Source: Halalkalicoccus subterraneus
GTDB taxonomy: Archaea > Halobacteriota > Halobacteria > Halobacteriales > Halalkalicoccaceae
DNA length: 64,000 nucleotides
NCBI RefSeq assembly: GCF_003697815.1
Contig: NZ_RDQG01000016.1
Span: 1-64,000 of the forward strand
Direction: 5' to 3'
Positions 6,963-23,321 of the stretch are shown here, piece after piece; the stretch's first letter is position 1; every line of letters begins with the position of its first letter. The translations under genes and the position numbers were made by a program. The notes under the pieces were generated by a model. The model made no database searches. It was not told the origin of the DNA and saw only the letters and a program-made list of their open reading frames with translations.

Positions 6963-7035
6963 ATCGCCACGTTCCCGCCCATGTAACTTATAGAATTGGT
7001 TCGATCAGTGCCACGCGCAGTGGTAAGAGTCCATA

Positions 7036-8144
7036 CTATGGTTCGGTCACCCGGAGGACCGGCTTGACCACCTTACCGGCCTCCTGTTCTTCGACCGCTC
7101 GCTCGATCTCCTCGAAGTCATAGTAGGTGACGAGTTCGTCGAACGGGAACTTCCCGGCACGATAGAGGTCGATCAGGTCAGAGATGAACAGGTCCGGCGT
7201 GGAGTTGCCCTCGATAACTCTCTTGACGTTACGGCCGAGCAGGACGTTGTTCAAGTCGAGACTCACCTCGGTCCCCAGCAGTGGGGCGCCAACGACCGTA
7301 CAGTCGGCGTTCTGTCGCAGGCAGTCGACCGCCTGCCGGAGAACGGTCGTGTTGGCCGTCGTCTCGACGTTGTAGTCGGTGCCCCCACCGAGGTGGTCGT
7401 GGACGGCGTCGACCGTATTGTCGACGACGTCGGGATCGATGGCGTGAGTCGCACCCAACTTGAGCGCTGCCCCGCGACGAGACTCTATGAGGTCGACGGC
7501 GAGTATGTCCGTATAGTCCTTCAGGTCCGCGGCCATGACCGCGCTCAGCCCGGCTGACCCGGTCTCGAAGACGACGATAGAGGAGGCCGCCTGCGGATCA
7601 AGAGTATTGATGACGGCGCTCGCATCCGTCTGGATACCACACCCGAGCGGGCCCAGAAGTTCGAGCGAAACATCGTCCCCGTCAAGAACGATGTTTCGCT
7701 CGGTGGCCAGCGCGTGGATCCCGAAGGAGGACTGGCCGAAGAACATACCGCTTACCTCCTCACCGTTATCGTGAATCGGCGCCGACCTGTCCCCGACCCA
7801 CCGGCCGGCGAAGTTGTGCTTGAAGAACCCCTCGCAATACGTGACATCGCCCTCTCGTCAGTTTAGGCAGTTCCCGCCGTAGTCGAACGTGAGAACGACC
7901 CTGTCGCCGGGATTCACTTCTGTGACATCCTCCCCGATTCCCTCGACAACACCCGGTCCCTCGTGGCCGGTACCGCTGGCAGCGGAGTCGGGTAGTACTG
8001 CTCTCTGACTGTGATGTACGTGTGACACAGTCCGGCACCAACGGTGCGAACCTGAACCTCTCCAGGCCAGAGATCGTCTAATTCCAGTGATCCAATCTCG
8101 AATGATCCTGATTCTTCCCGTACGACTGCAGCTTCGATCTCTAT
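7036..8144 (-). pseudogene. Broken zinc-type aryl-alcohol dehydrogenase (XylB-like MDR)
   Basis: Conceptual translation gives a full zinc-dependent alcohol dehydrogenase, but in pieces. The likely start codon is ATA at 8142-8144 (MEIEAAV expected). The first zinc motif reads GLCHTYI instead of GLCHTDL. After TPLPAV near 7970 the frame shifts, then resumes as GHEGPGVVEGIGEDV. A structural-zinc cysteine (NCLNC) is now TGA near 7857. From 7746 to 7036 the Rossmann half is intact. Four independent lesions argue for true decay rather than one sequencing error. The neighbour aldehyde dehydrogenase is divergent, so the pair once probably oxidised an aromatic alcohol to the acid. Selenocysteine at TGA is unlikely because haloarchaea lack that system and other lesions exist. 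Confidence 0.85.
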
Positions 8145-8250
8145 AGATTCACATCAATAGTATTATATTTAATATATAAATATTTTGATATTTAATTCCA
8201 ATCGTGTGTTGTCATCAGGTATGATGTACTCTCAGTCGGTGCGAACCAAA

Positions 8251-8259
8251 TATTTTTAA
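8251..8259 (+). promoter_or_regulatory. TATA-like box before aldehyde dehydrogenase
   Basis: TATTTTTAA sits about 30 nt before the ATG at 8285, predicting a transcript start within a few bases of the start codon, as usual for haloarchaea. The 140-bp intergenic space is very AT-rich (8155-8195) and also served the now-broken divergent alcohol dehydrogenase. Confidence 0.55.
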
Positions 8260-8284
8260 TCGCCCTCTGAGAAGCCGTCTCCGG

Positions 8285-9736
8285 ATGAGCTATTCCGGTC
8301 CGACAGACCTGTTTATCGACGGCGAGTGGACAAGTTCCGAGAGCGGCGAGACGCTCGTCACAGAAGATCCAGCGACCGAGGAACCCTACGCGGAGGTCGC
8401 AGAAGCCACGACGGAGGACATCGACCGCGCCGTCTCAGCCGCGGAGAGAGCGGTCGGGCGCGAGGTGGAGTGGCGATCACTGGCCCCCCGGGAGCGTGGC
8501 GCACGGCTGTACGCCATGGCCGACGCGATCGAGGAACGAAAGGACGAGATCATCCGTGTCGAATCTCGAGACAACGGCAAGACTCCCTTCGAGGCGACCC
8601 TGGATGTCGACATGGTAATCGACACCTTCCGGTACTACGCCGGTTGGACCGACAAGATCCAGGGCAACGAGGTGCCGGTCCCCGGCGACAGGCTGAACTA
8701 CACGGTTCGCGAGCCGCTCGGCGTCACCGGCCACGTAATCCCATGGAACTACCCGTTCCAGCTCGCCGGCCGAAGCCTCGCGCCAGCGCTGGCCTGCGGG
8801 AACACGGCCGTCCTAAAACCCTCCAGTACGACGCCCCTGTCGGCGCTATACTACGCGATCGCGGCGGAGGAAGCGGACCTGCCCGACGGTGTCTTGAACG
8901 TCGTCCCCGGACGGGGGAGCACCGCCGGGAACCGCCTCGCCGAACACCCGGACGTCGATCACGTCGCGTTCACGGGCAGCACGGGCGTCGGCAAGGCCGT
9001 TATGGAGCACGCCTCGCGAAACGTCACGAGCGTCACGCTCGAACTCGGGGGGAAGGGGCCGAACCTCGTCTTCCCGGACGCCGACCTCGACGCCGCTGCC
9101 GGAGGGGTCCACTACGGCATCTTCATGAACGCCGGCCAGATGTGCTGGGCGGGGTCACGCCTGCTCGTCCACGAAGACGTCCACGACGAGGTGGTCGATC
9201 GAGTCGTCGAACGGGCTAAATCGACGCCGCTTGGAAGCGGGATTGACGACGACGGCCGAATGGGACCAACTGTCAGCGAAAGCCAACAGCAGGAGGTGCT
9301 CGAGTACATCGAGACGGGCAAAAACGAGGGTGCAACGGTCGCGACCGGCGGCAATATTCCCTCCGAGAAGGATGTCGGCCACTTTGTCGAGCCGACCGTG
9401 TTCACTGATGTTACCAATGATATGACGATCGCCCGTGAGGAGATCTTCGGACCCGTGCTGTCGGTGATTGAGTTCGCCGACCGTGAGGAGGCCATCGAGA
9501 TCGCCAACGATTCTCCCTACGGATTGATGGCCGGAATTTGGACTACAGACCTGAAGACGGCCCACTCGGTCGCCGATTATCTCGATTACGGGATGGTGAG
9601 CGTCAACGAATTTCCAGTTACCCAGCCTCAGACGCCCTTTGGCGGATTCGAGCAGAGCGGCCTCGGACGGGAGCAGGGTACCGAAGCCATCCACGAGTAC
9701 ACCCAGACAAAGAACGTCAACGTCAATCTTGAGTAG
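8285..9736 (+). CDS. NAD(P)-dependent aldehyde dehydrogenase
   Basis: 483 residues, the usual length. Catalytic Cys287 (NAGQMCWAGSR) and general base Glu253 (LELGGKGP) are present, along with the PWNYPFQL nucleotide-binding region, FTGSTGVGK, and the C-terminal NEFPVTQPQTPFGGF block. It oxidises aldehydes to acids, or in this context possibly an aromatic aldehyde such as benzaldehyde or phenylacetaldehyde. It lies divergent from the broken alcohol dehydrogenase with a shared AT-rich promoter region. A TATA-like box 30 nt upstream supports this start. The substrate is inferred only from neighbours; betaine-aldehyde-type activity cannot be excluded. Confidence 0.92.
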   Translation: MSYSGPTDLFIDGEWTSSESGETLVTEDPATEEPYAEVAEATTEDIDRAVSAAERAVGREVEWRSLAPRERGARLYAMADAIEERKDEIIRVESRDNGKTPFEATLDVDMVIDTFRYYAGWTDKIQGNEVPVPGDRLNYTVREPLGVTGHVIPWNYPFQLAGRSLAPALACGNTAVLKPSSTTPLSALYYAIAAEEADLPDGVLNVVPGRGSTAGNRLAEHPDVDHVAFTGSTGVGKAVMEHASRNVTSVTLELGGKGPNLVFPDADLDAAAGGVHYGIFMNAGQMCWAGSRLLVHEDVHDEVVDRVVERAKSTPLGSGIDDDGRMGPTVSESQQQEVLEYIETGKNEGATVATGGNIPSEKDVGHFVEPTVFTDVTNDMTIAREEIFGPVLSVIEFADREEAIEIANDSPYGLMAGIWTTDLKTAHSVADYLDYGMVSVNEFPVTQPQTPFGGFEQSGLGREQGTEAIHEYTQTKNVNVNLE

Positions 9737-10082
9737 CGTTCTCCCGCCGCACGTTTATCCCTGAGAACGGAGAGCCGGTTCCCGAGAAGACCGTACAAAA
9801 TCCCGTTGCTACCGACGTTCGCACGGATCTCAGCAAACCATCGGCTCCGCGCCTGGTAATTCAGACGACCGCTTCTGGGAGGAGCCAGCTGTGAAAAACA
9901 TTGTCGACCTGGGCGACAAGATCTATCGTGTACGGCGAAACCGGGTGTACGATTCGTGTGTCAACATTACGTCCACTGAGGAGTCACTCGGAAATCAGCC
10001 CCGCGAACCGGGATGGCTGCGCATACTGGTGCGGGGAGACCAACCGATCCAGCTGACGGTTCTCGAATCATCTCCGAGAAGC

Positions 10083-10088
10083 TTTATA
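10083..10088 (+). promoter_or_regulatory. TATA box before acyl-CoA dehydrogenase
   Basis: TTTATA lies 27-32 nt before the ATG at 10115, giving a near-leaderless transcript and fixing that start against an upstream in-frame ATG at 10013. The rest of the 378-bp stretch 9737-10114 holds no convincing gene; a GTG frame at 9891-10109 ends just before the acyl-CoA dehydrogenase and has no recognisable features. Confidence 0.6.
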
Positions 10089-10114
10089 GTGGCGTGTCCC
10101 AGGTATTGAACCGT

Positions 10115-11269
10115 ATGACCCTCATCGAGAGCGCGCTCTCCGAGGAGCACCGCGAAATCCGAGACCGGTCGGCGGCCTTCGCCGCCGACGTCGTCGAACC
10201 GGAGGCAGAACGCATCGAGCAGGACGATGAGTTCCCTCGCGAAGTGATCGAACAGGCGGGCGAATACGGTCTCCTGGGGATCATGGTTCCCGAAAAGTAC
10301 GGCGGCGAGGGGTCGGACTTCCTCTCGTACTGCCTGGCTGTCGAGCGGATCGCCGAGGCAAGCGGCGCGGTCGCCGAGACGATCCAGGGCCACACGTTCG
10401 CAGCGCTCCCGATCTTGAACTTCGGCACCGAGAAACAGAAATCCGAGTACCTCGAACCAATGGTCCGTGGAGAGCATGTCGGCGCGATGCTGTTGACCGA
10501 GCCTAGCGCAGGCAGTTCGCCGACGGAACTCGAGACGGTCGCCGAGGCCGACGACGGGGGCTACTCGATCGCCGGCGAGAAGTCCTTCGGGACGAATGCC
10601 GGCGTCGCAGATATCCACCTCGTCGTCGCGCGTAAGCGCCCTGCGCCCGAGGAGGGTCACGGTGTGAGTGTCTTTCTTGTTCCTGCCGTCGATGATCAGG
10701 AGGGATTCACCTTCGAACGCGAGATGTTTATGGGGATGCGTGGCCATGTCACTGGCGACTCAACGTTTGATGACGTCCACGTGAGCGAGAATGCACTGCT
10801 GGGCGAGATAGGTAGGGGCTTTCGGATCGCAATGGGAACTATCGACATGGCCCGAACAGGATTGGGCGCTATCGGGATAGGTATTGCCCGCGCTGCGTTA
10901 GATGAGGCAATCGACTACGCTGGCACGCGTGAGCAAGGTGGCCAGGCAGTCGGCCAGTACCAGGCAGTGCAGGTACTCGTCGCCGATATGGATGCTCAAC
11001 TAGACGGGGCGCGCCACCTTGTCTACGATTCGGCAAAGTCGATCACTGACGGTCAGGGCGACACACGCAAGTCGAGTAAGGCGAAGTTCGTCTCGAGCGA
11101 GGCTGCTGAGTTCATTACTCGTAACGCAATCCAAGTCTATGGCGGGAAAGGCTATCGAAAGGATCTGCCGCTTGAGCGCTACTACCGAGATGCGAAGATA
11201 CTGAGTATCATTGGCGGAACAAACGAGATTCAGCGAACAACCGTTGCAAGTGAAGTGCTGAATCTCTAG
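10115..11269 (+). CDS. Acyl-CoA dehydrogenase
   Basis: 384 residues, a standard three-domain flavoprotein: N-terminal helices, a middle beta domain with LLTEPSAGSS (FAD and substrate contacts), and a C-terminal helical domain with YGGKGYRKDLPLERYYRDA. It introduces a 2,3 double bond in an acyl-CoA and passes electrons to ETF. The usual catalytic Glu in IYEGT is Gly here (IIGGTNEIQ). The alternative isovaleryl/long-chain position, read by eye as LDLER in those enzymes, appears as IDMAR, so no canonical base is obvious. The start at 10115 fits a TATA box. It stands alone between the aldehyde dehydrogenase and the convergent hydratase of the paa-like operon. No ETF genes are in the window. Confidence 0.9.
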   Translation: MTLIESALSEEHREIRDRSAAFAADVVEPEAERIEQDDEFPREVIEQAGEYGLLGIMVPEKYGGEGSDFLSYCLAVERIAEASGAVAETIQGHTFAALPILNFGTEKQKSEYLEPMVRGEHVGAMLLTEPSAGSSPTELETVAEADDGGYSIAGEKSFGTNAGVADIHLVVARKRPAPEEGHGVSVFLVPAVDDQEGFTFEREMFMGMRGHVTGDSTFDDVHVSENALLGEIGRGFRIAMGTIDMARTGLGAIGIGIARAALDEAIDYAGTREQGGQAVGQYQAVQVLVADMDAQLDGARHLVYDSAKSITDGQGDTRKSSKAKFVSSEAAEFITRNAIQVYGGKGYRKDLPLERYYRDAKILSIIGGTNEIQRTTVASEVLNL

Positions 11270-11468
11270 TACCAAAACAAACCCTCGGGTAACGGCATTT
11301 GCCTCGTCCTATCTAGAAATACTATATCTTCAACGCCGTTCCGGTGAATTCATCGATTTTCAGCTAACCAGCCATGTCTCACAATTATTCCTCCCCTTTA
11401 TAGTTGGATGATCTAAAAACCGCACTGGTTAAAAACGGAATGGGATATACGTGGCCGCAAGTCAGCAG

Positions 11469-12320
11469 CTAGTCGTCGCTTGGTTCGCCAGGTTCTTTCT
11501 CGCCGAGTTCGACGGCCAGGAAGTCTGCTTCGTGATCTCCGAGAAATGCGTTAACACCTTCTTTCTCCACGTCGGAGCCGAGCAGACGATTTTGGAGTTC
11601 GCGCTCGTGGGAGAGAGCATCCCAAAGGGGCATTTCGAGGCCCTCGTTGACAGCCAGTTTGTTATGGCCAACAGCCATGTGGGACTTCTGGGCGATTTGC
11701 TGGGCGAACTCGCGGGCGGCGTCTTCAACCTCTCCAGCAGGGTGGAGCTCGTCGAAGATGCCGCGATCAGTCGCTTCTTCCGGTGAGATTGTCTCACCAG
11801 TAATCATCATTTTGAGTGCGGTGGACCGATCGATATAGCGGGGAAGCAGTTGTGTTCCCGCCTCACCAGCGATGAGACCGAGGTGAATCTCTGGCATGCC
11901 AACGTTGTAATTATCATCATTACCGACATATCGGAAGTCACAGGCCAGCGCGAGTTCTAACCCACCACCCATACAGTGACCATCCACTACCGCAATGAAG
12001 ATGGTATCGGTCGTCCGCATCTTCATGATGATCTCTTTGCTCGTCTGGCTTGCATAGCCTACTTGTTTACCCGATTCCTCCTGAAGTGCTTTGATATCAA
12101 AGCCCGTTGAGAAGAACTTCTCGTTAGCACTTCCGAACAGAACGGCTCGGACATCTTCATCAAATCGGACTGTCTCGACGGCTCGCTGCAATTCAAGGAG
12201 AACGTCGATATTATGGGCGTTAGCCGGTGGTCGATCGATACGGATGGTTCCGACATGATCCTCTAAGTCTGTCTGGAAGAATTCCAGGTCTAGCTCGCTA
12301 AACGCTTGCATACATCTCAT
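11469..12320 (-). CDS. Enoyl-CoA hydratase/isomerase family protein
   Basis: 283 residues, crotonase fold. The oxyanion-hole segments are visible as FSTGFDIKAL and GHCMGGGLELALACD, and the active-site loop as MPEIHLGLIAGEAGTQLLPR. One acidic residue is retained in PEIHLG; the second catalytic Glu position reads around GEAGTQ, consistent with hydratase or isomerase chemistry. It lies 123 nt downstream of the PaaD-type zinc ribbon on the same strand, so it is probably the last gene of the epoxidase operon. In the bacterial phenylacetate pathway PaaG isomerises the ring epoxide to an oxepin; a similar job is a reasonable inference. The C-terminal tail is acidic, as usual for halophiles. Confidence 0.85.
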   Translation of the reverse strand: MRCMQAFSELDLEFFQTDLEDHVGTIRIDRPPANAHNIDVLLELQRAVETVRFDEDVRAVLFGSANEKFFSTGFDIKALQEESGKQVGYASQTSKEIIMKMRTTDTIFIAVVDGHCMGGGLELALACDFRYVGNDDNYNVGMPEIHLGLIAGEAGTQLLPRYIDRSTALKMMITGETISPEEATDRGIFDELHPAGEVEDAAREFAQQIAQKSHMAVGHNKLAVNEGLEMPLWDALSHERELQNRLLGSDVEKEGVNAFLGDHEADFLAVELGEKEPGEPSDD

Positions 12321-12443: not shown

Positions 12444-12617
12444 TTATTCGGTATCGGGCTGTTTACCATCGAACTTGATGCGTTCGAAAACGGTATTACA
12501 GCTATTGCAGTAGTACTGCATCTTCGATATCTCACTTCCGAACGCGGATTCCCGTTCGGTATCCGCTGAGTCACAGAATGGGCAGATGATGTTCAGATCC
12601 GAATCTTGGTCGTTCAT
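12444..12617 (-). CDS. PaaD C-terminal-type zinc-ribbon protein (split PaaD)
   Basis: 57 residues from the ATG at 12617, five nt after the PaaC stop; the longer frame would start at TTG. Four cysteines form CPFCDS and CNSCN, with the DTERESAFGS block between them that matches the C-terminal zinc domain of bacterial PaaD, which follows a DUF59/MIP18 domain in the same chain. Here that DUF59 half is a separate gene two positions upstream (13595-13990). PaaD helps mature or support the di-iron PaaABC oxygenase in bacteria. Splitting the protein suggests the two halves associate or act separately. The small size explains why it could be overlooked. Confidence 0.82.
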   Translation of the reverse strand: MNDQDSDLNIICPFCDSADTERESAFGSEISKMQYYCNSCNTVFERIKFDGKQPDTE

Positions 12618-12622
12618 GGCGA

Positions 12623-13387
12623 TCAATTCATCGCGAAGAGTTCGTTCTCGGTCCCCCGAAGCTGTCGGGTATCGGCGTCACTGATTGATCCGTCACCAAC
12701 GCGTCGTCTGACTTCGTTCCACTCGCTGAGTGCCGGACCGTCCCAATCGACGCTGTCAAGCGAAACGGCCGTATTCTTGAACAAGTCGCGGTAGTGTCCT
12801 TCGAATGCTTTGCGAATCTCGGTAATCGAACGGTTAGTGAACCCAGCTTGGAACAGTGGATCCGTTGCTTCGTTGTATTCTGCAGGTCCGATGAACGCAA
12901 GCGCTTGAGGCAATGTTGTTTCCAGAGTAGTCTGTATTGTGTCAGGATCTTCTTCGGCTAGTGCCTCTAAACGAGCGTCATGGTACTCGAGATGAAAGTA
13001 CTCATCTTCACCCATTTTGGTGATTAGTCCATCGAGATCATCCTTATCGATGGCATCGATTAGGTACCACGCTGCGCGGTCGGCTGGTGCGATTGAGGCT
13101 ACATATGCCGGCCAGTTCCCATCGATCCGATCAAGACAGGCGGCGTTATGGAACTCCTCTGCGTCGCGTTGACCGTTGAGCCAATCTAGATCCCGGCCTT
13201 GTGACTGCAGTTCATTGATGAACTGGCGGAAGTGACCGATTTCCTCTTGGGCGGCACTTGCCCCGCCGATATCGTCCTCAAGTGAGGGTCCAGCGAGGCT
13301 CCATTGAGCGTTCCGGTGCCCAAGGATGAGTTTGGTGTCTGCGATAGCTTGTACATAGTCGACCGCTGAGTCTGGCCATTTACTCAT
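12623..13387 (-). CDS. paaC: Phenylacetyl-CoA epoxidase-type structural subunit PaaC
   Basis: 254 residues from the ATG at 13387 (ATGAGTAA overlap with the PaaB stop; a GTG six nt earlier is possible). Ferritin-like helical protein. Early sequence TKLILGHRNAQWSLAGPSLEDDI and the AQEEIGH and EDEYFHLEYH helices match PaaC, the structural partner of the di-iron PaaA subunit. It contributes to the PaaAC heterodimer. Gene order is paaA, paaD-N, paaB, paaC, paaD-zinc, differing from bacterial paaABCDE. Tight spacing shows a single transcript. Confidence 0.9.
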   Translation of the reverse strand: MSKWPDSAVDYVQAIADTKLILGHRNAQWSLAGPSLEDDIGGASAAQEEIGHFRQFINELQSQGRDLDWLNGQRDAEEFHNAACLDRIDGNWPAYVASIAPADRAAWYLIDAIDKDDLDGLITKMGEDEYFHLEYHDARLEALAEEDPDTIQTTLETTLPQALAFIGPAEYNEATDPLFQAGFTNRSITEIRKAFEGHYRDLFKNTAVSLDSVDWDGPALSEWNEVRRRVGDGSISDADTRQLRGTENELFAMN

Positions 13388-13589
13388 CAGCACCCACCCT
13401 CATTGTAGGCTGCTTGCCGGTGACCTCAATCAGATTTTCCTCGCGAACGACTGCGAGGAAATCCCAGTCCTCTTCGTCGAACGTGTTGTGTGCATACATC
13501 CTTGCTAAGCGGTCACTCTGTGCCCGCACGTTACCGATATGGAGCGTCTCATCGCCTTGGTTGATCCGTGCAAATACTTCGTATTTCAT
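13380..13589 (-). CDS. paaB: Phenylacetyl-CoA epoxidase-type subunit PaaB
   Basis: 69 residues. The sequence MKYEVFARINQGDETLHIGNV, the ARMYAHNTF helix and the WDFLAVVREENLIEV end match PaaB, the small bridging subunit that joins PaaAC heterodimers in bacterial phenylacetyl-CoA epoxidase. It starts five nt after the paaD-N stop and its stop overlaps the paaC start, so it is co-translated with the oxygenase subunits. Length is slightly shorter than the bacterial ~95 residues; the difference lies in the tail. Confidence 0.88.
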   Translation of the reverse strand: MKYEVFARINQGDETLHIGNVRAQSDRLARMYAHNTFDEEDWDFLAVVREENLIEVTGKQPTMRVGADE

Positions 13590-13594
13590 CGATC

Positions 13595-13990
13595 TTAGAG
13601 GCTAATTCCCGCTTCCCGCATCTTCTCTCTGACCTCGGCGGTGAGCATATCTTTCGACCAGACTGGATCCCAAACCACCTCAATGTCGACGGTTTCGACG
13701 CCATCAAGGATGGTCAAACAACTTTCGATGTCGTTCTGGATCATGTCGTAGGCTGGACATCCCATACAAGGGTACGTCATCTCAACGGTGACTGCTCCAC
13801 TATCAGCCTCAATGTCGTAGATCATCGCCATTTCGACTAGGCTGACGGGAATGTGTGGATCGGGGATCTCATCAACAACATCCCAAAGATATCCTTCGAA
13901 GGGGGTTGCGTCCGCGCGGCGCCGCTCAACAAACTCGCTCGCGTGCGAAGAGTCGGATATACCTTTTGTTCGTGGTTGTACGCTCGACAT
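13595..13990 (-). CDS. PaaD N-terminal-type DUF59/MIP18 protein (split PaaD)
   Basis: 131 residues. The core VVDEIPDPHIPVSLVEMAM, the Pro-Cys segment TYPCMGCPAYDMI, and the ending VVWDPVWSKDML are typical of the DUF59 half of PaaD and of SufT/MIP18-type iron-sulfur assembly proteins. The zinc-ribbon tail normally fused to bacterial PaaD is missing and is encoded separately at 12444-12617. It sits between paaA and paaB, three nt after the paaA stop. A role in loading or protecting the metal centre of the oxygenase is inferred from PaaD family knowledge. The N-terminal 30 residues are a variable, probably flexible extension. Confidence 0.87.
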   Translation of the reverse strand: MSSVQPRTKGISDSSHASEFVERRRADATPFEGYLWDVVDEIPDPHIPVSLVEMAMIYDIEADSGAVTVEMTYPCMGCPAYDMIQNDIESCLTILDGVETVDIEVVWDPVWSKDMLTAEVREKMREAGISL

Positions 13991-13993
13991 AAG

Positions 13994-14914
13994 CTATACC
14001 TCGACCTCGACTTTACCTGATTGGATGAGCTCAACGTACTTTTCGTTGGCCGGACCGCGGGAACGCCAGCGGTCCATGACATCGCCCCACGAAATGGATT
14101 CGTTGTAGCGCCATTCTTTGTTCTCTGCGTCGAACGCGATCGGCATGTCATACTCGATGACGTACTCGTCCGCCTCTTCATCGTAGTGAGCTGGAACGTT
14201 TAGGTCGAGTTCGTTCATTAGAGGTAACGACCGCGAAAGCCAATCTTGACGGAGTTCGTCGTTGGACTTGCCTTTAATTTGGTACTCAAGTTGATCATCA
14301 TGTTTTTTCTTGTCGTCGGGCAATCCGAACCACTCGATTCCGATCGGGAACATCCAATCAACCGCTTCCTGCAGCTTTCGATGGGTTTTGTCGTTTTTGT
14401 TCGCAAGACGGCGCATCCACGTCTCTCCGTGGCGGAGGTGGAACTGTTCTTCCTTGTTGACTTTCGTCAGCGCGCGTTTCCAGGGCGCATATGAGGTATT
14501 TTCGTGGATATCGCCCAAGAGGACGATACCTGCACGGTCGAACAAGCCGTGGGCCGTCACGAGCTCCGCGAAATTCTCAATGTGCTGATCGAACCCGTAT
14601 GTATTGCGGAACTCATGAGGCTCGCGCCCGTAAATAAGGTCTTCGCGGTTCTCACCCAAGTCTTCAAGCAGGCGGTAAGCAATGTGGCCGTGGCCGAGTT
14701 CGTCCTGGATTACGCTGATACAGGACGCTCGTGCGTTAGGCGACGGTGCGTTGAGAGACTGATCATAGTACGCGGGCGCACTCATCAGCTCTGTATCTCC
14801 CGAGACCAGCAAAATCTGTTTCAAGGCTTTCTTGTAGCCTTCGGTCATCTCATCGGTCGATTCAATCATCTTTCCATTCTGAACTTGCTGTTTCAACTGT
14901 TTCTCTGTTGGCAT
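13994..14914 (-). CDS. paaA: Phenylacetyl-CoA epoxidase-type catalytic di-iron subunit PaaA
   Basis: 306 residues. The di-iron carboxylate pattern is visible: Glu42 (GDTELMS), Glu72-x-x-His75 (DELGHGHIAY), Glu117 region, and Glu156-x-x-His159 (NKEEQFHLRHG). This matches PaaA, which epoxidises the ring of phenylacetyl-CoA using O2 and electrons from PaaE in bacteria. No PaaE reductase is present; a stand-alone 2Fe-2S ferredoxin lies 675 nt away on the other strand. The gene heads a five- or six-gene operon. A degenerate copy of the GTATAC palindrome lies about 50 nt before the start, overlapping the likely promoter. Because the linked ligase looks benzoate/2-aminobenzoate-like, the substrate may be another aryl-CoA. 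Confidence 0.92.
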   Translation of the reverse strand: MPTEKQLKQQVQNGKMIESTDEMTEGYKKALKQILLVSGDTELMSAPAYYDQSLNAPSPNARASCISVIQDELGHGHIAYRLLEDLGENREDLIYGREPHEFRNTYGFDQHIENFAELVTAHGLFDRAGIVLLGDIHENTSYAPWKRALTKVNKEEQFHLRHGETWMRRLANKNDKTHRKLQEAVDWMFPIGIEWFGLPDDKKKHDDQLEYQIKGKSNDELRQDWLSRSLPLMNELDLNVPAHYDEEADEYVIEYDMPIAFDAENKEWRYNESISWGDVMDRWRSRGPANEKYVELIQSGKVEVEV

Positions 14915-14963
14915 GGTCTACCTCTACACTCCAATTGTTTGGCCAGCACTATAATTGTTTTCT

Positions 14964-14982
14964 GTATACGATTTTCGTATCC
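14964..14982. promoter_or_regulatory. Degenerate copy of the GTATAC palindromic operator before paaA
   Basis: GTATACGA-TTT-TCGTATCC is an imperfect version (one extra spacer base, one mismatch) of the 18-bp palindrome found twice upstream of the aryl-CoA ligase. It lies 50-68 nt before the paaA start in the 174-bp space to the divergent GNAT gene, so it could control either direction. Confidence 0.5.
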
Positions 14983-15088
14983 GATTGCCGAATTCAGATC
15001 CTCTTCAAGACCATTTAGGGAAAACCATCATCATTATGATGGAAGAGATGACAGGACCTTTTTGGTAGTTGGGAGCAGAAGAGAGAAC

Positions 15089-15583
15089 ATGACGTACGAA
15101 CTACGACACAGTACGGTCGATGACGGTAAGGAAATCCTCGAACTCTGGCACGGGTTCACAGAGCACCTTTCGAAGTACGATGATCGCTACCAGCATAAAG
15201 AGGACGCAGACAATCGATGGCTACAGTACTTCGAGAATCAACTTGTCGACTCAAAATACGGGACAGTGATCATCGCCGAACACGAAGAAACAGGCGAATT
15301 GATTGGCGTTCTTGAAGCACGTGTGATGGGTGATCATCCAATTTTTCGTCTCAAGGATCACGGGTACATTAATGGTCACTATGTTCGGGAGGACCATTGG
15401 AATGAGGGCGTTGGTAAGGCGTTGATTGAGGAGGCTCATACTTGGTTCGCTGACTCACCGCGTGACATCGACTTCTATCGAATTGACGTGGTTGACGGCG
15501 ACGAGAAGGCCGCAGAGGTGTACGAAAAACTCGGATTCGAACCAGTTGAACACGTCTTCGAACGCTCCATCGAGGAGCAGTAG
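15089..15583 (+). CDS. GNAT-family N-acetyltransferase
   Basis: 164 residues from the ATG at 15089; upstream in-frame sequence overlaps paaA antisense and is not coding. The GNAT core is visible: ELRHSTVDDGKEILELW at the start, the IIAEHEETGELIGVLEAR strands, the acetyl-CoA loop reading WNEGVGKALIEEA, and VYEKLGFEPVEHVFER at the end. It acetylates an amine or amino group using acetyl-CoA. The ferredoxin start lies 5 nt downstream, so the two are co-transcribed and divergent to the oxygenase operon. Why an acetyltransferase belongs to an aryl-CoA oxygenase locus is unclear; modification of an amino-aromatic or detoxification is only speculation. Confidence 0.88.
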   Translation: MTYELRHSTVDDGKEILELWHGFTEHLSKYDDRYQHKEDADNRWLQYFENQLVDSKYGTVIIAEHEETGELIGVLEARVMGDHPIFRLKDHGYINGHYVREDHWNEGVGKALIEEAHTWFADSPRDIDFYRIDVVDGDEKAAEVYEKLGFEPVEHVFERSIEEQ

Positions 15584-15588
15584 AACCC

Positions 15589-15870
15589 ATGGTTGAGACA
15601 TACACTATCGAGTTCGTCGATGAGGGGGTGACCCTTGAGGTGGACGAAAACGAATCAATCCTTGAGGCAGCAGAGGAAGCTGGACTTGATCTGCCCTACC
15701 AATGCCGGATGGGTGTCTGTGGCGTCTGTAGCGGGATGTGTGAGAAGGGCGAAACAGATCAGATGGAGGGAATGTTTCTCTCTGAAAGCGAAAAAGAGGA
15801 TGGCTATGTTCTCACCTGTATCGCGAAGCCTCGTTCAGACATGCAGATACGGACCAACGAGAGCCCTTAG
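15589..15870 (+). CDS. 2Fe-2S plant-type ferredoxin
   Basis: 93 residues. The cluster ligands are seen in YQCRMGVCGVCSGMC and the late LTCIAKP, giving the C-x4-C-x2-C...C spacing of plant-type ferredoxins. The YTIEFVDEGVTLEVDENESILEAAEEAG beginning is a typical beta-grasp. The length is that of a ferredoxin domain alone, without the flavin/NAD reductase of bacterial PaaE, which normally carries such a domain at its C-terminus. It is therefore the best candidate electron donor for PaaA here; a reductase must come from elsewhere. It is co-transcribed with the GNAT gene. Confidence 0.93.
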   Translation: MVETYTIEFVDEGVTLEVDENESILEAAEEAGLDLPYQCRMGVCGVCSGMCEKGETDQMEGMFLSESEKEDGYVLTCIAKPRSDMQIRTNESP

Positions 15871-16441: not shown

Positions 16442-18151
16442 TTATTGCGCTTTCTTCTCTATCTCCCGCTCGCGAAGCTCGATACGGCGAATCTTTCCCG
16501 TTTCAGTTCGTGGTAGTTCGCGTACGAACTCAACTTCACGTGGATACTTGTACGGTGCGAGCGTGTCCTTGACGTGACTCTGGATCTCGTCGACCAGATC
16601 GTCTCCCGAGAGAACACCGTCGGCGGTCACGACAAATGCCTTAACGATCGCGCCGCGTTCCTCGTTCGGGCTACCGACGACGGCAACCTCGCTGACGGAA
16701 CCGAGTTCCTCAATGACGGCCTCAACCTCCGGGCCTGGGATATTGTAGCCGCTAGATATGATAAGATCATCATTTCGGGACTTATACTCAAAACGACCGT
16801 CCTCCCGCTGGACGAAGATATCGCCTGGGTACGACCAGTTGTTCTTCACCGCGTTGGCCTGCTTTCGTGGTCGGTTCCAATACTCAATACCAGTCGGACC
16901 ACGAACGGCTAGCAACCCTGCTTCGCCGCGGTCGCATTCCTCGCCGGTCTCGGGATCGACGATCTTGCACTCATAGCCGGGAACCGGAAATCCGGTTGCG
17001 CTTGGATCGATCTCCTCGCCGTGACGGTGACTGATGAATATATGGAGCATCTCTGTTGTTCCAATCCCGTCGAGCAGTTCGATCCCATATTCCCTCTTGA
17101 ACGACTCGAACGTTGTTGGCGTTAACGGCTCACCGGCGCTCGCGCCCACGCGAAGGGAAGAGATGTCGTAATTTTCGGGACCGTCGGGGTACTTTGAGAG
17201 AATCTGATTAAATGCAGTCGGGATCGAACAGAGGATCGAAATTCCGTGGGCGTCGATAGCTTCCAGTAAATCCCCCGGTGTAGCGTCTTCAACAAGACTC
17301 GTACTGGCTCCGAAGCGAAGCGGGAACGTAACAAGATCGCCGTAGCCGTACGCGAATGGAAGCGGTGGGTTTCCACCGAAGACGTCCTCCTCAGTCGGTT
17401 CGAGACAGTACTGGGCGTAGGTATCCGCGCTCGCAAGCAAATTTCGGTGGGTGTGGACCGCGCCCTTGGGCTCGCCCGTCGTCCCACTCGTGTACAGCAT
17501 TAACGCTACATCGTCGCGTTCCGTTTTATGTGCGTCAAGATCGCTACTCGCATCATTAAGGAGCGTATCGTAGTCGTAGTGATCGTGTTCGACGCTATTG
17601 CGCTCGGCGACGATAACGTTCTCAACGGTTTCGAGGCTTGGCAATGCATTTTCGATTTCCTCAAGGAGGTCGTCGTAGACAACGACTGTCGTCGCCTCGG
17701 CATTATTGATGATATGATCGAGTTCCGCGGCCCGAAGGAGCTTCATCGAAGGAAGCGCGACGGCACCGATCTTTTGTGCGGCGAGGCAGGTTACGACCGC
17801 TTCGGGTCGGTTGGGGAATCTGGCGACAACCCGATCGCCGGGCTCGACCCCAAGACCGATGAGTGCGTTTCCCATCTGATTGACCGTATCTTGTAACTCC
17901 GCATAGGAGATAGTTTGATCCTCAAAGTGGACGGCAACATTATCTCCCCGTCCCTCGTGAACGTGTCTATCTACTAGCTCTTCCGCCACGTTGATTTGTC
18001 GAGGGTAGTGTACTTCCGGAACGGCGTGGACGTAATCCGGTCCGTTCGCCTCGTCCGGCAGGTACTCCGATGGTATACTGGACTGCATATCCGAATAGAT
18101 CATCATAGTTTCGGGAGAAATACCTAACGGTTCCTTTCCTGCAAGAGCCAA
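16442..18151 (-). CDS. Aryl-CoA ligase (benzoate/2-aminobenzoate-CoA ligase type)
   Basis: 569 residues, AMP-forming adenylate family. The P-loop-like LMLYTSGTTGEPKGAVHTHR, the GIGTTEMLHIF motif, the YKSRNDDLIISSGYNI hinge and the C-terminal LPRTETGKIRR lysine motif are all present. The early region (YPRQINVAEELVD, then PSMKLLRAAELDHI) resembles benzoate- and especially 2-aminobenzoate-CoA ligases rather than PaaK-type phenylacetate ligases. It activates an aromatic acid to its CoA thioester, which the nearby oxygenase could use. The start at 18151 gives a somewhat long N-terminus; internal ATGs exist within the first 27 codons. The CoA-transferase genes lie upstream on the same strand. Confidence 0.88.
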   Translation of the reverse strand: MALAGKEPLGISPETMMIYSDMQSSIPSEYLPDEANGPDYVHAVPEVHYPRQINVAEELVDRHVHEGRGDNVAVHFEDQTISYAELQDTVNQMGNALIGLGVEPGDRVVARFPNRPEAVVTCLAAQKIGAVALPSMKLLRAAELDHIINNAEATTVVVYDDLLEEIENALPSLETVENVIVAERNSVEHDHYDYDTLLNDASSDLDAHKTERDDVALMLYTSGTTGEPKGAVHTHRNLLASADTYAQYCLEPTEEDVFGGNPPLPFAYGYGDLVTFPLRFGASTSLVEDATPGDLLEAIDAHGISILCSIPTAFNQILSKYPDGPENYDISSLRVGASAGEPLTPTTFESFKREYGIELLDGIGTTEMLHIFISHRHGEEIDPSATGFPVPGYECKIVDPETGEECDRGEAGLLAVRGPTGIEYWNRPRKQANAVKNNWSYPGDIFVQREDGRFEYKSRNDDLIISSGYNIPGPEVEAVIEELGSVSEVAVVGSPNEERGAIVKAFVVTADGVLSGDDLVDEIQSHVKDTLAPYKYPREVEFVRELPRTETGKIRRIELREREIEKKAQ

Positions 18152-18272: not shown

Positions 18273-19052
18273 TCAGGATTGAGTCCAGAACCCGTCCGGG
18301 TCGAATGTCCGAATCAGTTTCAATTCCTCATCAGTGGGCTCGGGAGTCGTCATCACTGTACCTTTGCCGATATCCTCGGCAGTATTCATTTCCCAGGGGA
18401 AGTCGACTAGCACCTCCTCTGCTGAGATCCCTGGATGGACGCTCCGAAGGTAGAGTTCCCCGTCGGCATCGAAGCCGAATGTCGCCTTCGAAGTCACGAG
18501 TGCGCTGGGGCCGCCACCGGGTGCGGGGTGGTTCTTCCGCCTCCCACCGGTGTGGCTGTGACCCGGACTCGTCACGTAATGGACTTCCTCGGTAAACCGG
18601 CGTGGTTCGTGAGGCATGAGCAGCACGGTTCGACCAGCCATACAGGCAATATCGCATGCGCCACCGCTGCCAGGAAGGCGAATTTCGTCATCACCACTCT
18701 GAACCCACGTCGTGTTGAGATTGCCATACCGGTCTATCTCCGCGCCGCCGAGGAATCCGACATCTATGTCCCCACGCTGGAGACGGCTCATAATGCTCAT
18801 CATTCCCGTCGTCGACACCGCGTGATTCAGGTTCGGCAGATCACACATTGTGTGAATGAATCCGTTTGCAGGCGAATCCCTGACAACGCCGCTCTCGTAC
18901 ACCGCCATCGAATCTGGCGCATGAGTGCTAACAGCGACTTGGAATGCGATAAGCGGCAAGCGCATCCCAACGAATGCCGTGTCACCATCCTCGATCTCCG
19001 CGGCTGCCGCGCTAACCATCAGCTCTCGAGGGGAGTATCCCTCACTGGCCAT
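18273..19052 (-). CDS. CoA-transferase beta subunit (family I, glutaconate/3-oxoadipate type)
   Basis: 259 residues from the ATG at 19052 (MASEGYSP), which overlaps the alpha-subunit end by 11 nt; the longer upstream frame is less likely. The FVGMRLPLIAFQVA start and the GDIDVGFLGGAEIDRYGNLNTT block are typical of beta subunits, as is GSGGACDIAC. Beta subunits of this family carry a catalytic Glu near SENG in some members; here the corresponding YESGVVRD segment holds a Glu. It transfers CoA between an acyl-CoA and a free acid. Together with the ligase it offers two routes to activate acids in this island. Confidence 0.9.
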   Translation of the reverse strand: MASEGYSPRELMVSAAAAEIEDGDTAFVGMRLPLIAFQVAVSTHAPDSMAVYESGVVRDSPANGFIHTMCDLPNLNHAVSTTGMMSIMSRLQRGDIDVGFLGGAEIDRYGNLNTTWVQSGDDEIRLPGSGGACDIACMAGRTVLLMPHEPRRFTEEVHYVTSPGHSHTGGRRKNHPAPGGGPSALVTSKATFGFDADGELYLRSVHPGISAEEVLVDFPWEMNTAEDIGKGTVMTTPEPTDEELKLIRTFDPDGFWTQS

Positions 19053-19938
19053 AGCGCACCTCCGTAGCGACAGTCGGCTCGGTGATCGAAAGGTCGGCGT
19101 CGACTCTATTGATATATTCGGCTCGATCAGAGACGCCATAAACCCACTCGGCGGCCCATTTATCGAAGGCATCCTGTGTTTTAGTTTGCTGATGATAGGT
19201 CAAATAATAGTTGTTATCGCGGTTATAGTGGCCTGCCAATGGCGACGGATGGGCACCGAATGGGCACTCGACGACGGCTGTCACCTGTTCGCTTGTGATC
19301 GCGACCCGACTCGGATCAGCCGTAATCACCTCTGGATCAACAATTTCCTCGGCGGTGACCAAGATGTTCTCTGCAGCACCAACGGCTGGATCAAGAATAC
19401 CGGTGTTACCCCATAGGTGAACGTTGCCATCAGGACTCGCCCGCTGTGCATGAACGATCGTCCAGTCCGGTTCGATTGAAGGTACGAGAGCGAGTTCCTC
19501 CTCCGAAAATGGATCGATCTCCTTTTGGAACAGGTCGCTCCTCTCAAAAATATCGCTCCCCAACAAAGACCGAGTCGGGAGATAAGGGACACCCAAAGCT
19601 CCCGCCTGTAGCGCAAGCGCGATGCTGAAGTTCGAGTGATCTTCGATCTCAATTTCACCTTCTTCGATGGCTTCCCGGAATCGATAGCCGGTACCCGCAC
19701 TGACGTTTCCAACCCACGCGGCACGAATTCGGGACACTGTGTCACCGCCGATTAGCTGATCGAACAGGAGGTCACTGATCGGTCCGATTAGCGTGAGGTC
19801 GTCAGTCCCCTGTCGAAGGAGTTCGTGACCCGCAGCGAATGGGATCGCATGTTCGAGAGCAAGACCAATAGCTACCGAGCTGCCGGGCTTGATTCGAGAT
19901 ACTGCCTCCTCTAGTGTAGTTGTTGTTTGGTCTACCAT
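19042..19938 (-). CDS. CoA-transferase alpha subunit (GctA-like)
   Basis: 298 residues. The IKPGSSVAIGLALEHAIPFA start, the AWVGNVSAGTGYRFREAIEEG segment and HAQRASPDGNVHLWG match alpha subunits of glutaconate CoA-transferase-like enzymes. It heads the CoA-transferase pair, with the beta gene overlapping its 3' end. The divergent binding-protein gene starts 118 nt away, so the AT-rich gap between them is a two-way promoter region. Family members act on glutaconate, 3-oxoadipate or aromatic succinates; the substrate here is not evident. Confidence 0.9.
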   Translation of the reverse strand: MVDQTTTTLEEAVSRIKPGSSVAIGLALEHAIPFAAGHELLRQGTDDLTLIGPISDLLFDQLIGGDTVSRIRAAWVGNVSAGTGYRFREAIEEGEIEIEDHSNFSIALALQAGALGVPYLPTRSLLGSDIFERSDLFQKEIDPFSEEELALVPSIEPDWTIVHAQRASPDGNVHLWGNTGILDPAVGAAENILVTAEEIVDPEVITADPSRVAITSEQVTAVVECPFGAHPSPLAGHYNRDNNYYLTYHQQTKTQDAFDKWAAEWVYGVSDRAEYINRVDADLSITEPTVATEVRYGQ

Positions 19939-20033: not shown

Positions 20034-20055
20034 GTTTAGTATACCTCGAATGAGT

Positions 20056-21297
20056 ATGTCTCATAGAGGCGTGGATGTAATTACCACACAACGGCAGGGA
20101 TCCACAACAAGTTCATCAGGCATCTCGCGGCGACAGTACTTGCAAACGAGCGCGCTACTCGGGACGACGGCGGGGATCGCTGGCTGTCTCGGGGAAGGAG
20201 ATGACACCCTCACTGTCGGGTATGTGCTCCCGTTCACCGGCGTCTACTCGCTACTTGGCGACAGTATTGTAAACGGGTTCGAGATGTACGTCGATGAACA
20301 GGGTGGGGAAATCGACGGGCAAGAGGTCGAGTTCGTGAGCAGAGACACAGAGGCGGACACCGACACCGGTGTGTCGGTTGCCCGCGAACTACTCGTCGAA
20401 GCTGGCGCCGATGTTCTGGTCGGTCCGGTCTCGAGTGCCGTTGCAATCGCAATGATGCAGACAGTCGAAAATGAGTCAAGCGCAATCTGGCTTAACGCAA
20501 ACGCAGGCGATTACCGCGTTGTCCAGGATGGCTGCCTGCCGTATCATTTCCGTACATCATTCAATGATTGGCAGACGAGCGCACCGCTCGCACCGTGGGT
20601 CTACGAGAACGTCGCTGATAATATCGTTCTCACCTACGCCGACTACGCGTTCGGTCAGAACTCGCGTGACTTCTTCGCCGAGGCATTCGAGGAGGCTGGC
20701 GGCGAGGTCGTTGATGAGGTGACAGTCCCGCTTGGTACCGACGACTTTTCGCCATATATGGGAGATATCGAGGGAAGTGGAGCAGACGCAGTGTACTCGT
20801 TTTTCGCCGGTAGCGACGCAGTAAACTACATTACACAGTTCCACGAGTTCGGTCTTGACGAGGAGATGGTTCAGACAGGTAGTGGATTCTTATTAGACGA
20901 AGATTCGCTTCCAGCTCAGGGTAACGCCGCAGTCGGGAAGTACTCTCTGCTCCACTACGCATCGAATCATGAACGAACACAGGAATTCGTCGAGAGCTAT
21001 CGTGAAGAGCACGATGAGACACCGAACGTCTACGCCTGTCAAGGGTATGACTCCGCACAGGCGTTCGAGCTGGCCGTCACTGAGGGTGGAACGGATCCCG
21101 ACGCGATGGTGGAGGCGCTTCGTGGTGCAGAAATCGATAGCCCTCGGGGTGACTTCAGTTTCCATCCGGAGACGAATGACCCAGTTCAGGACATGTATGT
21201 TCGCGAGGTAGTTGAGGGAGAGGACGGACCTGAAAACGAGATCGTCGAAACACTCGAAACAGTCGAACCACCCACGTGGGGTTGCAGCCTAGATTGA
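20056..21297 (+). CDS. Branched-chain amino acid-type ABC substrate-binding lipoprotein (LivK family)
   Basis: About 413 residues. An N-terminal twin-arginine lipoprotein signal is seen: SRRQYLQTSALLGTTAGIAGC, with the Cys lipobox near residue 43, so the protein is exported folded and anchored outside. The mature part begins TLTVGYVLPFTGVYSLLGDS, the standard type I periplasmic-binding fold of LivK-like receptors. It likely captures the aromatic acid or a related carboxylate for the permease encoded next. In aromatic-degradation islands such binding proteins often bind benzoate-like acids rather than amino acids. It starts a five-gene transporter operon. Confidence 0.93.
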   Translation: MSHRGVDVITTQRQGSTTSSSGISRRQYLQTSALLGTTAGIAGCLGEGDDTLTVGYVLPFTGVYSLLGDSIVNGFEMYVDEQGGEIDGQEVEFVSRDTEADTDTGVSVARELLVEAGADVLVGPVSSAVAIAMMQTVENESSAIWLNANAGDYRVVQDGCLPYHFRTSFNDWQTSAPLAPWVYENVADNIVLTYADYAFGQNSRDFFAEAFEEAGGEVVDEVTVPLGTDDFSPYMGDIEGSGADAVYSFFAGSDAVNYITQFHEFGLDEEMVQTGSGFLLDEDSLPAQGNAAVGKYSLLHYASNHERTQEFVESYREEHDETPNVYACQGYDSAQAFELAVTEGGTDPDAMVEALRGAEIDSPRGDFSFHPETNDPVQDMYVREVVEGEDGPENEIVETLETVEPPTWGCSLD

Positions 21298-21345
21298 AAC
21301 GATGACACGATGCTTATTCGGCAATAGATTGGTCTGGAGGCGCGT

Positions 21346-22215
21346 ATGCTAGAGTCGCTCCTCCGAGCGACTCTTCTGGGCCTCCAACTTGGAGTGACGC
21401 TCGCGCTCATCGCCGCCGGACTTACACTGATCTTCGGAATGATGGATGTGATCAATTTCGCTCACGGAGCGCTATATATGCTCGGCGCGTACATCGGTCT
21501 GGTAATCGCAGATCTCCTCGGAAGCTTTTGGCTCGCGCTCTTGCTCGCCCCATTAGTCGTTGGGGTGATTGGAGCCGGTATTGAGATTTTCTCGCTACGC
21601 CCTCTGTACGGCCGCAATCCACTATATCACATCCTACTCACGTTCGGGCTTGCGATCATGGCCCAAGGAATTATCGTCGAAATATGGGGCGCACGCTCTC
21701 GGCGGATACCAGCTCCCGAGTTGCTCTCCGGGTCAGTGTCAGTTGGCCCCGTTACCTATCCAGTCTACTGGCTATTCGTACTCGCATTCAGTACTATCTT
21801 GATCGGGACGATCTGGATCGCCATTGAGCGCAGCGATCTCGGGATTCTCATGCGGGCGAGCGCCCATGATACCGAAATGGTCGATGCGCTCGGTGTCGAC
21901 GTTAAAAAGGTGTTTACTGCTGTGTTCGTCTTTGGGGCAGCGCTCGCAGCTATCGCTGGCGTGCTACTCGGTGCGTCGCGGTCGGTTCATCCAGGAATGG
22001 GCTTCGGTGTTATCATTGAGGCGTTTGTTATCGTCGTTATCGGCGGACTCGGCAGTTTCAAGGGCGCGATCTACGCGGCGCTGTTGATTGGGCTCGTTAT
22101 TGCATATGGCGCCCTAATCGCACCGGCACTGACCGACCTGTTCATCTTTACGCTGATGGCGGCAGTTCTAATCATTAAACCAAGCGGCCTGTTCGGCGCA
22201 ACGGAGGCGGCCTGA
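21346..22215 (+). CDS. LivH-type ABC permease
   Basis: 289 residues, mostly hydrophobic with about eight membrane segments. The MMDVINFAHGALYMLGAYIG segment and the GLGSFKGAIYAALLIGL loop are the hallmarks of LivH permeases. It forms the membrane channel with LivM and is placed between the binding protein and LivM in the usual order. LivM begins two nt after its stop. Confidence 0.92.
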   Translation: MLESLLRATLLGLQLGVTLALIAAGLTLIFGMMDVINFAHGALYMLGAYIGLVIADLLGSFWLALLLAPLVVGVIGAGIEIFSLRPLYGRNPLYHILLTFGLAIMAQGIIVEIWGARSRRIPAPELLSGSVSVGPVTYPVYWLFVLAFSTILIGTIWIAIERSDLGILMRASAHDTEMVDALGVDVKKVFTAVFVFGAALAAIAGVLLGASRSVHPGMGFGVIIEAFVIVVIGGLGSFKGAIYAALLIGLVIAYGALIAPALTDLFIFTLMAAVLIIKPSGLFGATEAA

Positions 22216-22217
22216 TC

Positions 22218-23321
22218 ATGAAGGCGATTACCGAGTATGCACACAACCTGAAGGAGGCGGTCGGACTCAGCGAAGTAACAGCTCCGGCCGGTGAGCAGGT
22301 TCTGTCCTCACAGGGTCGTATTGCAGCCCTAATCGTTGCTGGTGTCCTGGCTGCGTTCGCCCCGGTCGCACAGGCGTTCGAACCGTTCTGGTTGAATCTC
22401 TTGACGCGAATGCTCGTCTTCGCGTTACTTGCATTGAGTTTGGATTTCGTCTTCGGGTACGCTGGCCTCCTCTCGTTCGGGCATGCGGCAATGTTCGGTG
22501 CTGGCGGCTATACGGCCGCCCTCGTGGTACGAGAAATGACGACGAATGCGCTGATTGTCCTACCGATATCGATGCTGGTGGGGATCCTCGTCGCGGCATT
22601 CATTGGCTGGTTCAGCGTCCGTGCAAAAGGAATCTACTTCGCCATGCTGACGCTGGCGTTCGCTCAGATGTTCTACGTGATCATATTTACCGATCTTCCG
22701 GCAGCAGCACTAGGTGTCGAAACGATCACTGGCGGCGACGACGGCCTCTTTGGTATCCCGCTATACGACATCTTTGGAATCGATTTTGGCTCGCGACTAT
22801 TGTATTTCTACCTGACACTTGTATTCGTACTCTTATCGTTCGCCATCCTCGTCCGGGTGGCGAACTCACCATTTGGCCGTACAATGCAGGGGATCCGCGA
22901 GAACGAGGAACGTATGCAATTCATTGGCTACAATGTCCAGCGCTACAAATTGCTTGCCTTCGCGATCAGTGGTGGATTTGCCGGGCTTGCTGGGGGACTA
23001 TATGTTCCGTTCCAAAGTGTTGCCCAGCCTGGATTACTCCACTGGACGATCAGTGGCGAACTCGTCGTGATGCTATTGCTCGGCGGGATGGGAACTCTTT
23101 GGGGCCCAATGCTCGGCGGTGCGCTCGTGATCTACCTCGAGGAACGGCTCGCTGGCTTCGCCACCTGGGAGATTATCCTAGGAAGCGTGTTTGTCGTTGT
23201 TGTGATTTTCGCACCACGAGGGCTTGCCGGCACGCTAATTTCCATCAGAAACGACCCACGTAATGCAATCACCAATGCAAAGGGAGCGCTTCGAAATTAT
23301 ATAGAAAAGGTGAAAGGATGA
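22218..23321 (+). CDS. LivM-type ABC permease
   Basis: 367 residues with roughly ten hydrophobic segments. The GYAGLLSFGHAAMFGAGGY motif and the late LLGGMGTLWGPMLGGALV loop (EAA-like contact with the ATPases) are characteristic of LivM. A charged N-terminal extension of about 30 residues precedes the first membrane span. Its stop overlaps the LivG start by 4 nt, so translation is coupled. Confidence 0.92.
   Translation: MKAITEYAHNLKEAVGLSEVTAPAGEQVLSSQGRIAALIVAGVLAAFAPVAQAFEPFWLNLLTRMLVFALLALSLDFVFGYAGLLSFGHAAMFGAGGYTAALVVREMTTNALIVLPISMLVGILVAAFIGWFSVRAKGIYFAMLTLAFAQMFYVIIFTDLPAAALGVETITGGDDGLFGIPLYDIFGIDFGSRLLYFYLTLVFVLLSFAILVRVANSPFGRTMQGIRENEERMQFIGYNVQRYKLLAFAISGGFAGLAGGLYVPFQSVAQPGLLHWTISGELVVMLLLGGMGTLWGPMLGGALVIYLEERLAGFATWEIILGSVFVVVVIFAPRGLAGTLISIRNDPRNAITNAKGALRNYIEKVKG

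Follow-up and report, generated by a model that had tools for sequence, protein, structure and literature searches.

In the bacterial 1,2-phenylacetyl-coenzyme A (CoA) epoxidase, PaaABCDE, PaaD is one protein and PaaE is a flavin reductase fused to a ferredoxin domain. Six iron ligands and a lysine bridge, Lys68-Glu49, have been described in the catalytic subunit PaaA (PMC4498308). The benzoyl-CoA epoxidase BoxB (with BoxA and BoxC) needs no structural subunit (PMC4498308), and its residues Thr119 and Ser123 lie near benzoyl-CoA (PMC5489048). For haloarchaea, NCBIfam already has one model for a "PaaD" consisting of DUF59 alone and another for a zinc ribbon of 56 residues, which it names "PaaE." Haloferax sp. 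D1227 is cited in PMC4005966 as growing on benzoate via gentisate; our literature search found no paper naming the oxygenase for the first ring attack in archaeal benzoate degradation. Here, we analyze a Paa-type locus of Halalkalicoccus subterraneus, located at positions 12444-15870 of a 64,000-nucleotide stretch of contig NZ_RDQG01000016.1 (referred to below as the window). Judged by its sequences, this locus belongs to a clade separate from the canonical phenylacetyl-CoA enzyme. On balance, we favor the view that its product is a di-iron ring oxygenase of the PaaA fold that uses O2 to attack an aryl-CoA, likely benzoyl-CoA or a close relative, and is fed by a ferredoxin.

With bacterial PaaABCDE, the window set shares the PaaA/PaaC fold, the six di-iron ligands, PaaB, and both PaaD domains. 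In contrast to that enzyme, it falls below every equivalog cut-off, lacks the lysine bridge, has PaaD in two pieces and no PaaE, and is additionally accompanied by a benzoate-CoA-ligase-like protein and a GNAT-fold protein. Like the window locus, the haloarchaeal Paa set (NF041867-NF041869) has the DUF59 domain and the zinc ribbon as separate proteins; yet the canonical haloarchaeal loci (L077-L081) have the lysine bridge and lack the GNAT-ferredoxin pair, the opposite of what the window locus shows. Shared with BoxB are the ligand spacing and the proposed substrate, and two residues (T41 and S45) fall, judged by that spacing, at BoxB substrate-side positions. BoxB, however, consists of one longer chain (about 470 residues in PDB entries), whereas the window PaaA has 306 residues and a PaaC partner.

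Gene content and conservation of the locus

Gene calls and profile searches of the window found all seven genes listed in a preliminary description of this DNA, at or near the positions given there, and profile matches support the identities proposed for them:

12444-12620, minus strand: PaaD zinc ribbon, a separate 58-residue protein with a CxxC...CxxC pattern (PF23451, 62 bits; TIGR02159 positions 104-144)
12623-13393, minus strand: PaaC-like structural subunit, 256 residues, GTG start (PF05138, 68 bits; TIGR02158, 45 bits; PDB 3pvr_B)
13380-13589, minus strand: PaaB-like bridging subunit, short, 69 residues (TIGR02157, 23.6 bits; NF041867, 21 bits)
13595-13990, minus strand: DUF59 (FeS_assembly_P) half of PaaD, 131 residues (PF01883, 56 bits; TIGR02159 positions 1-89)
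13994-14914, minus strand: PaaA-like catalytic di-iron subunit of the divergent clade (PF05138, 201 bits)
15089-15583, plus strand: GNAT-fold protein, 164 residues (PF00583)
15589-15870, plus strand: single-domain plant-type 2Fe-2S ferredoxin, 93 residues, downstream of the GNAT gene (TIGR02008, 95.9 bits; cut-off 81)

The minus-strand genes are ordered paaA, DUF59, paaB, paaC, and zinc ribbon; the GNAT and ferredoxin genes diverge from them, with 174 bases between the start codons of paaA and the GNAT gene. The PaaB-like assignment is weak by score alone and syntenic in relatives. When aligned with PaaA, the PaaC-like protein matches five of the six di-iron ligands and has a Lys at position 42. 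A genome search found no second PF05138 pair in the rest of the genome, and a promoter and terminator scan returned sites no more often than in shuffled sequence.

The same gene order was sought in haloarchaeal genomes, as the preliminary description had proposed, and each of the 31 clade loci surveyed there (L042-L072) has the complete set of seven genes; such conservation argues that the grouping is not due to chance. In a second locus survey, many of whose haloarchaeal loci come from the same genomes, simpler gene calling overlooked one short gene in some loci.

A PaaA clade separate from the phenylacetyl-CoA enzyme

The equivalog models for PaaA, PaaB, PaaC, and PaaD score the window proteins far below their cut-offs (127 versus 280, 23.6 versus 85, 45 versus 133, and 71 versus 108 bits, respectively), and the haloarchaeal NCBIfam models do the same (NF041867, 21 versus 150; NF041868, 104 versus 180; NF041869, 42 versus 100 bits). 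Identity between the window PaaA and its canonical haloarchaeal counterpart is about 30%. Among 394 sampled genomes of the class, 43 carry a PaaA at least 57% identical to that of the window, the remaining PaaA sequences being canonical ones near 30% and a few intermediates at 32 to 44%; several genomes have both the clade PaaA and the canonical one. A scan of named genomes recovered clade members from genera including Halalkalicoccus, Natronococcus, Halorubrum, Halobellus, Haladaptatus, and Haloferax; at 55 to 59% identity, it also found them in numerous metagenome-assembled genomes of Gemmatimonadota and in a few from proteobacteria.

In a tree of 54 rows, canonical PaaA sequences (haloarchaeal, Escherichia coli, and Klebsiella) grouped with support of 100/99, and the window clade grouped with Thermus, Gemmatimonadota, Agrobacterium, and other sequences with support of 95/86; long branches were flagged in this tree, and the deep placement is provisional. 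A literature search found no paper on this PaaA clade. Labeling its genes as phenylacetate degradation genes is, we suggest, a wrong annotation.

Active site and fold

All six di-iron ligands are retained in the window PaaA (E42, E72, H75, D126, E156, and H159 in its own numbering), and they are present in every sequence checked, except for one ligand in L073. The lysine bridge is missing: K68 is replaced by V68 and E49 by Y49, as in nearly all haloarchaeal members. Three loci (L070-L072) have Thr and Leu at these positions, and the Thermus sequences and all 47 bacterial loci of the named-genome scan have I68 and Y49. Canonical haloarchaeal PaaA, by comparison, retains K68 and an E or D at position 49.

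Thr and Ser occupy positions 41 and 45 of the window PaaA, of nearly all haloarchaeal members, of Thermus, and of the 47 bacterial loci, where canonical PaaA has Ser and Gly. When mapped by identical ligand spacing rather than by alignment, T41 and S45 fall at the positions of BoxB Thr119 and Ser123. From the BoxB substrate-side set of Gln116, Thr119, Ser123, and Phe193, the residues T41, S45, and F108 would be matched under the same spacing, and S38 would differ; the 47 bacterial members, including Gemmatimonadota, have Q38 at the Gln116 position. A PaaA mutant altered at both bridge residues, E49Q K68Q, has been crystallized with benzoyl-CoA (PDB 4ii4).

These data bear on an explanation close to that of the preliminary description, namely, that the locus encodes a diverged but otherwise ordinary 1,2-phenylacetyl-CoA epoxidase in which PaaD is split and PaaE is replaced. 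The family and fold of PaaA and PaaC agree with it, as do the retained F108 and a Foldseek search with the PaaA model, in which PaaA structures came top with a template modeling (TM) score of 0.84, compared with 0.56 for BoxB. Nevertheless, we consider it improbable, given the uniformly subthreshold equivalog scores, the loss of the lysine bridge, the presence of a canonical Paa set in some of the same genomes, and the tie to a benzoate-CoA-ligase-like gene.

A split PaaD and a missing PaaE

The DUF59 protein and the zinc ribbon align one after the other along a single bacterial PaaD (positions 1-89 and 104-144 of the 146-position model TIGR02159), and because they cover successive parts of this model, PaaD is truly in two pieces. 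The preliminary description had taken the two-protein PaaD as an archaeal version. The two proteins stand, but the archaeal invention does not, since the split is already modeled in NCBIfam and occurs in bacteria: the halves are separate in the five canonical haloarchaeal loci examined, on Thermus plasmids (L082 and L083), on an Agrobacterium plasmid (L084), and in Gemmatimonadota loci from L127 on. Split PaaD is therefore neither new nor archaeal. The NCBIfam label "PaaE" for the haloarchaeal zinc ribbon (NF041869), which is the counterpart of the C-terminal region of PaaD in bacteria, can mislead annotation. The split-PaaD modules of Gemmatimonadota and other metagenome-assembled genomes (L127-L174) often have two DUF59 genes flanking paaA, one on each side; mostly, no aromatic catabolic neighbors were found beside them, and one (L130) has an FeoB-type gene upstream.

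A fused PaaD or a PaaE elsewhere in the genome was also looked for, and neither was found: genome searches returned no PaaD zinc ribbon besides that of the locus and nothing matching PaaE over its full length, ferredoxin and reductase pieces being present only separately. Likewise, a fused PaaE-type reductase is present in none of the 43 clade genomes at E ≤ 1e-25, under which the E. coli control was positive, in agreement with the earlier claim that PaaE is missing. The single-domain ferredoxin noted at the locus adjoins the oxygenase genes in all 31 of the haloarchaeal clade loci surveyed. As for the unlinked reductase, a candidate is a stand-alone flavin adenine dinucleotide/nicotinamide adenine dinucleotide (FAD/NAD) reductase of 237 residues, encoded on another contig.

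Association with a ligase, a crotonase, and gentisate dioxygenase

Two genes flanking the locus may bear on its substrate and product:

16442-18151, minus strand: benzoate-CoA-ligase-like AMP-forming ligase (TIGR02262, 370 bits; cut-off 375; PDB 2v7b and 4eat)
11469-12320, minus strand: crotonase of the enoyl-CoA hydratase family, adjoining the zinc ribbon gene and a candidate for the step after oxygenation (PF00378)

Of the 43 haloarchaeal clade genomes, 42 carry the benzoate-CoA-ligase-like gene, compared with 1 of 37 controls (Fisher P of about 2e-20, ignoring shared ancestry), and 36 carry the crotonase, compared with 0 of 37 (P of about 4e-16, with the same caveat). The control genomes, used also for gentisate dioxygenase, were picked by hand, favoring the same genera, and are not a random sample. 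In the Thermus locus, a benzoate-CoA ligase family protein scores 588 bits, well over the cut-off, and is accompanied by aldehyde dehydrogenases and an ATP-binding cassette (ABC) transporter similar to that of the window; this ligase lends independent support to the proposed substrate. Taken together, the most likely substrate is, we infer, benzoyl-CoA or a simple ring-substituted benzoyl-CoA.

Several points weigh against this assignment. The window ligase falls 5 bits short of the benzoate-CoA ligase cut-off. Haloarchaeal members have S38 where BoxB has Gln116, and F108 and the overall fold, being retained from PaaA, do not discriminate. Most Gemmatimonadota loci lack the ligase and the other neighbors of the Thermus locus within the flank examined, so the function of the clade may not be uniform; one of them (L140) has an aldehyde dehydrogenase and PaaF/PaaH-like genes. 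Finally, UbiD, amidase, and CoA-transferase genes near the locus may indicate another aromatic acid. The oxygenated compound could then be another aryl-CoA, for example a benzoyl-CoA bearing a hydroxy, amino, or carboxy group or the CoA ester that arises after UbiD decarboxylation or CoA transfer. We regard this alternative, with which the breadth of the ligase family, taking in 3-hydroxybenzoate and anthranilate ligases as well, also agrees, as conceivable but unlikely: the CoA-transferase is not at every locus, and we found no feature pointing to another substrate.

Gentisate dioxygenase is encoded by 21 of the 43 clade genomes and not by the window genome. It is present in every one of the seven clade genomes that lack the crotonase (P of about 0.004, again ignoring shared ancestry), and in four of these seven it lies about 11 to 16 kilobases from paaA on the same contig. 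In two Haloferax species, the clade locus is about 16 kilobases from the gentisate dioxygenase gene; in Haloferax sulfurifontis, the stretch between paaA and this gene encodes a fumarylacetoacetate-hydrolase-type protein and ADP-forming acyl-CoA synthetase subunits. Although correlative, this pattern is consistent with a shared oxygenated benzoyl-CoA that can leave by two routes, one through the crotonase and one through gentisate. Gentisate as the sole exit was rejected, as the dioxygenase is missing in 22 of 43 clade genomes, including the window genome. BoxC searches returned no match in the 43 clade genomes and likewise none in the control genomes.

A GNAT-fold protein paired with the ferredoxin

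The GNAT is encoded in 43 of 43 haloarchaeal clade genomes versus 4 of 351 others (P of about 3e-53, not accounting for shared ancestry), and all four of these have one or more copies within a Paa-type locus. It is a constant companion of the clade oxygenase in haloarchaea, not a chance neighbor. In one non-clade genome (G214, locus L188, positions 4312-12035), two PaaABCD modules stand in tandem, both with a lysine-bridge PaaA, and the GNAT and ferredoxin genes follow the second. The pair thus accompanies two different PaaA lineages, and since it also stands beside a canonical-type PaaA with the lysine bridge, it tracks the oxygenase rather than one active-site type. It is missing from the Thermus, Agrobacterium, and Gemmatimonadota loci and from the haloarchaeal L073, which makes it a haloarchaeal feature and not one that defines the clade.

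The GNAT matched no PDB sequence, and its AlphaFold2 model (predicted local distance difference test score of 91.5) matched generic GNAT folds only. The N-terminal half is the most conserved, with W20, Y34, W44, Y47, F48, and HPIF at 83-86 invariant; in the acetyl-CoA loop, glycine 107 is invariant and residue 109 is Glu in L074-L076. To our knowledge, no GNAT part is known for the PaaA-type enzyme family. We tentatively propose, with some doubt, that in haloarchaea this protein is a dedicated functional part of the di-iron aryl-CoA oxygenase system together with its ferredoxin, acting on the oxygenase, the ligase, or an aromatic effector. A precedent is BadL of Rhodopseudomonas palustris, a GNAT that acetylates aminobenzoates, whose acetamidobenzoate products release a repressor and so derepress benzoate genes, and that is needed for benzoate use (PMC6191541). 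The likeness, a GNAT fold beside a benzoate-type gene set, is one of description and not of demonstrated relationship; unlike BadL, the window GNAT tracks the oxygenase itself and also adjoins a canonical-type PaaA.

Alternatively, the free ferredoxin and the GNAT could be neighbors with no role in the oxygenase reaction, a housekeeping ferredoxin supplying the electrons. The loci that lack the pair are consistent with this idea, and the genome encodes several further 2Fe-2S ferredoxin-type proteins. We give it little credence, however, because the GNAT is so closely confined to genomes with Paa-type loci and because the pair is conserved down to about 40% identity.

Other genes of the window

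Further genes flank the locus:

8285-9736, plus strand: aldehyde dehydrogenase, linked in many relatives
10118-11269, plus strand: acyl-CoA dehydrogenase, linked in many relatives
18273-19172, minus strand: CoA-transferase subunit B, glutaconate-CoA-transferase-like (PDB 1poi_B)
19042-19938, minus strand: CoA-transferase subunit A (PDB 1poi_A)
20050-24884, plus strand: branched-chain-type ABC transporter comprising a binding protein, two permeases, and two ATPases

The CoA-transferase pair looks like a true transferase, since its closest solved relative is glutaconate CoA-transferase and it retains the ESG motif of the region that holds what we take to be the catalytic Glu; an IpdAB-type ring hydrolase was rejected on these grounds. 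A UbiD-like decarboxylase gene (410-1801), followed by one for a metallo-beta-lactamase-fold protein (1794-2732), recurs with it in the loci of Halalkalicoccus jeotgali (L085) and Haloarcula JP-L23 (L086). At 4387-6962, a thiolase-like protein is encoded beside a protein with a ChsH2-type zinc ribbon and OB fold; this pair resembles DUF35-thiolase pairs and, in many relatives, is linked to the oxygenase genes.

A candidate for archaeal benzoate ring attack

In the pathway that we envisage, benzoate would be imported by the ABC transporter or formed from side-chain precursors, and the benzoate-CoA-ligase-like enzyme encoded nearby would activate it. With PaaB and PaaC holding it, PaaA would then epoxidize or hydroxylate the ring, while the two PaaD halves would probably help load or maintain the metal center. 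Electrons may pass from the unlinked flavin reductase to the free 2Fe-2S ferredoxin and on to PaaA, replacing the fused PaaE, and the GNAT may serve as an accessory of the oxygenase. Opening of the product would fall to the neighboring crotonase and to enzymes of the beta-oxidation type; in some lineages, the product would go toward gentisate instead.

Overall, the split PaaD, the absence of PaaE, and the free ferredoxin of the preliminary description hold up, and its archaeal novelty does not; the separate clade, the ligase association, the lost bridge, and the constancy of the GNAT had gone unnoticed there. As split PaaD was already known, the newer point is a clade distinct from the canonical phenylacetyl-CoA enzyme and tied to a benzoate-CoA-ligase-like gene. 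This clade would extend PaaA-type chemistry to an enzyme naturally lacking the lysine bridge. It may be the missing first oxygenase of archaeal benzoate degradation and, found in two Haloferax genomes, offers a concrete, testable candidate for ring attack on benzoate in archaea.

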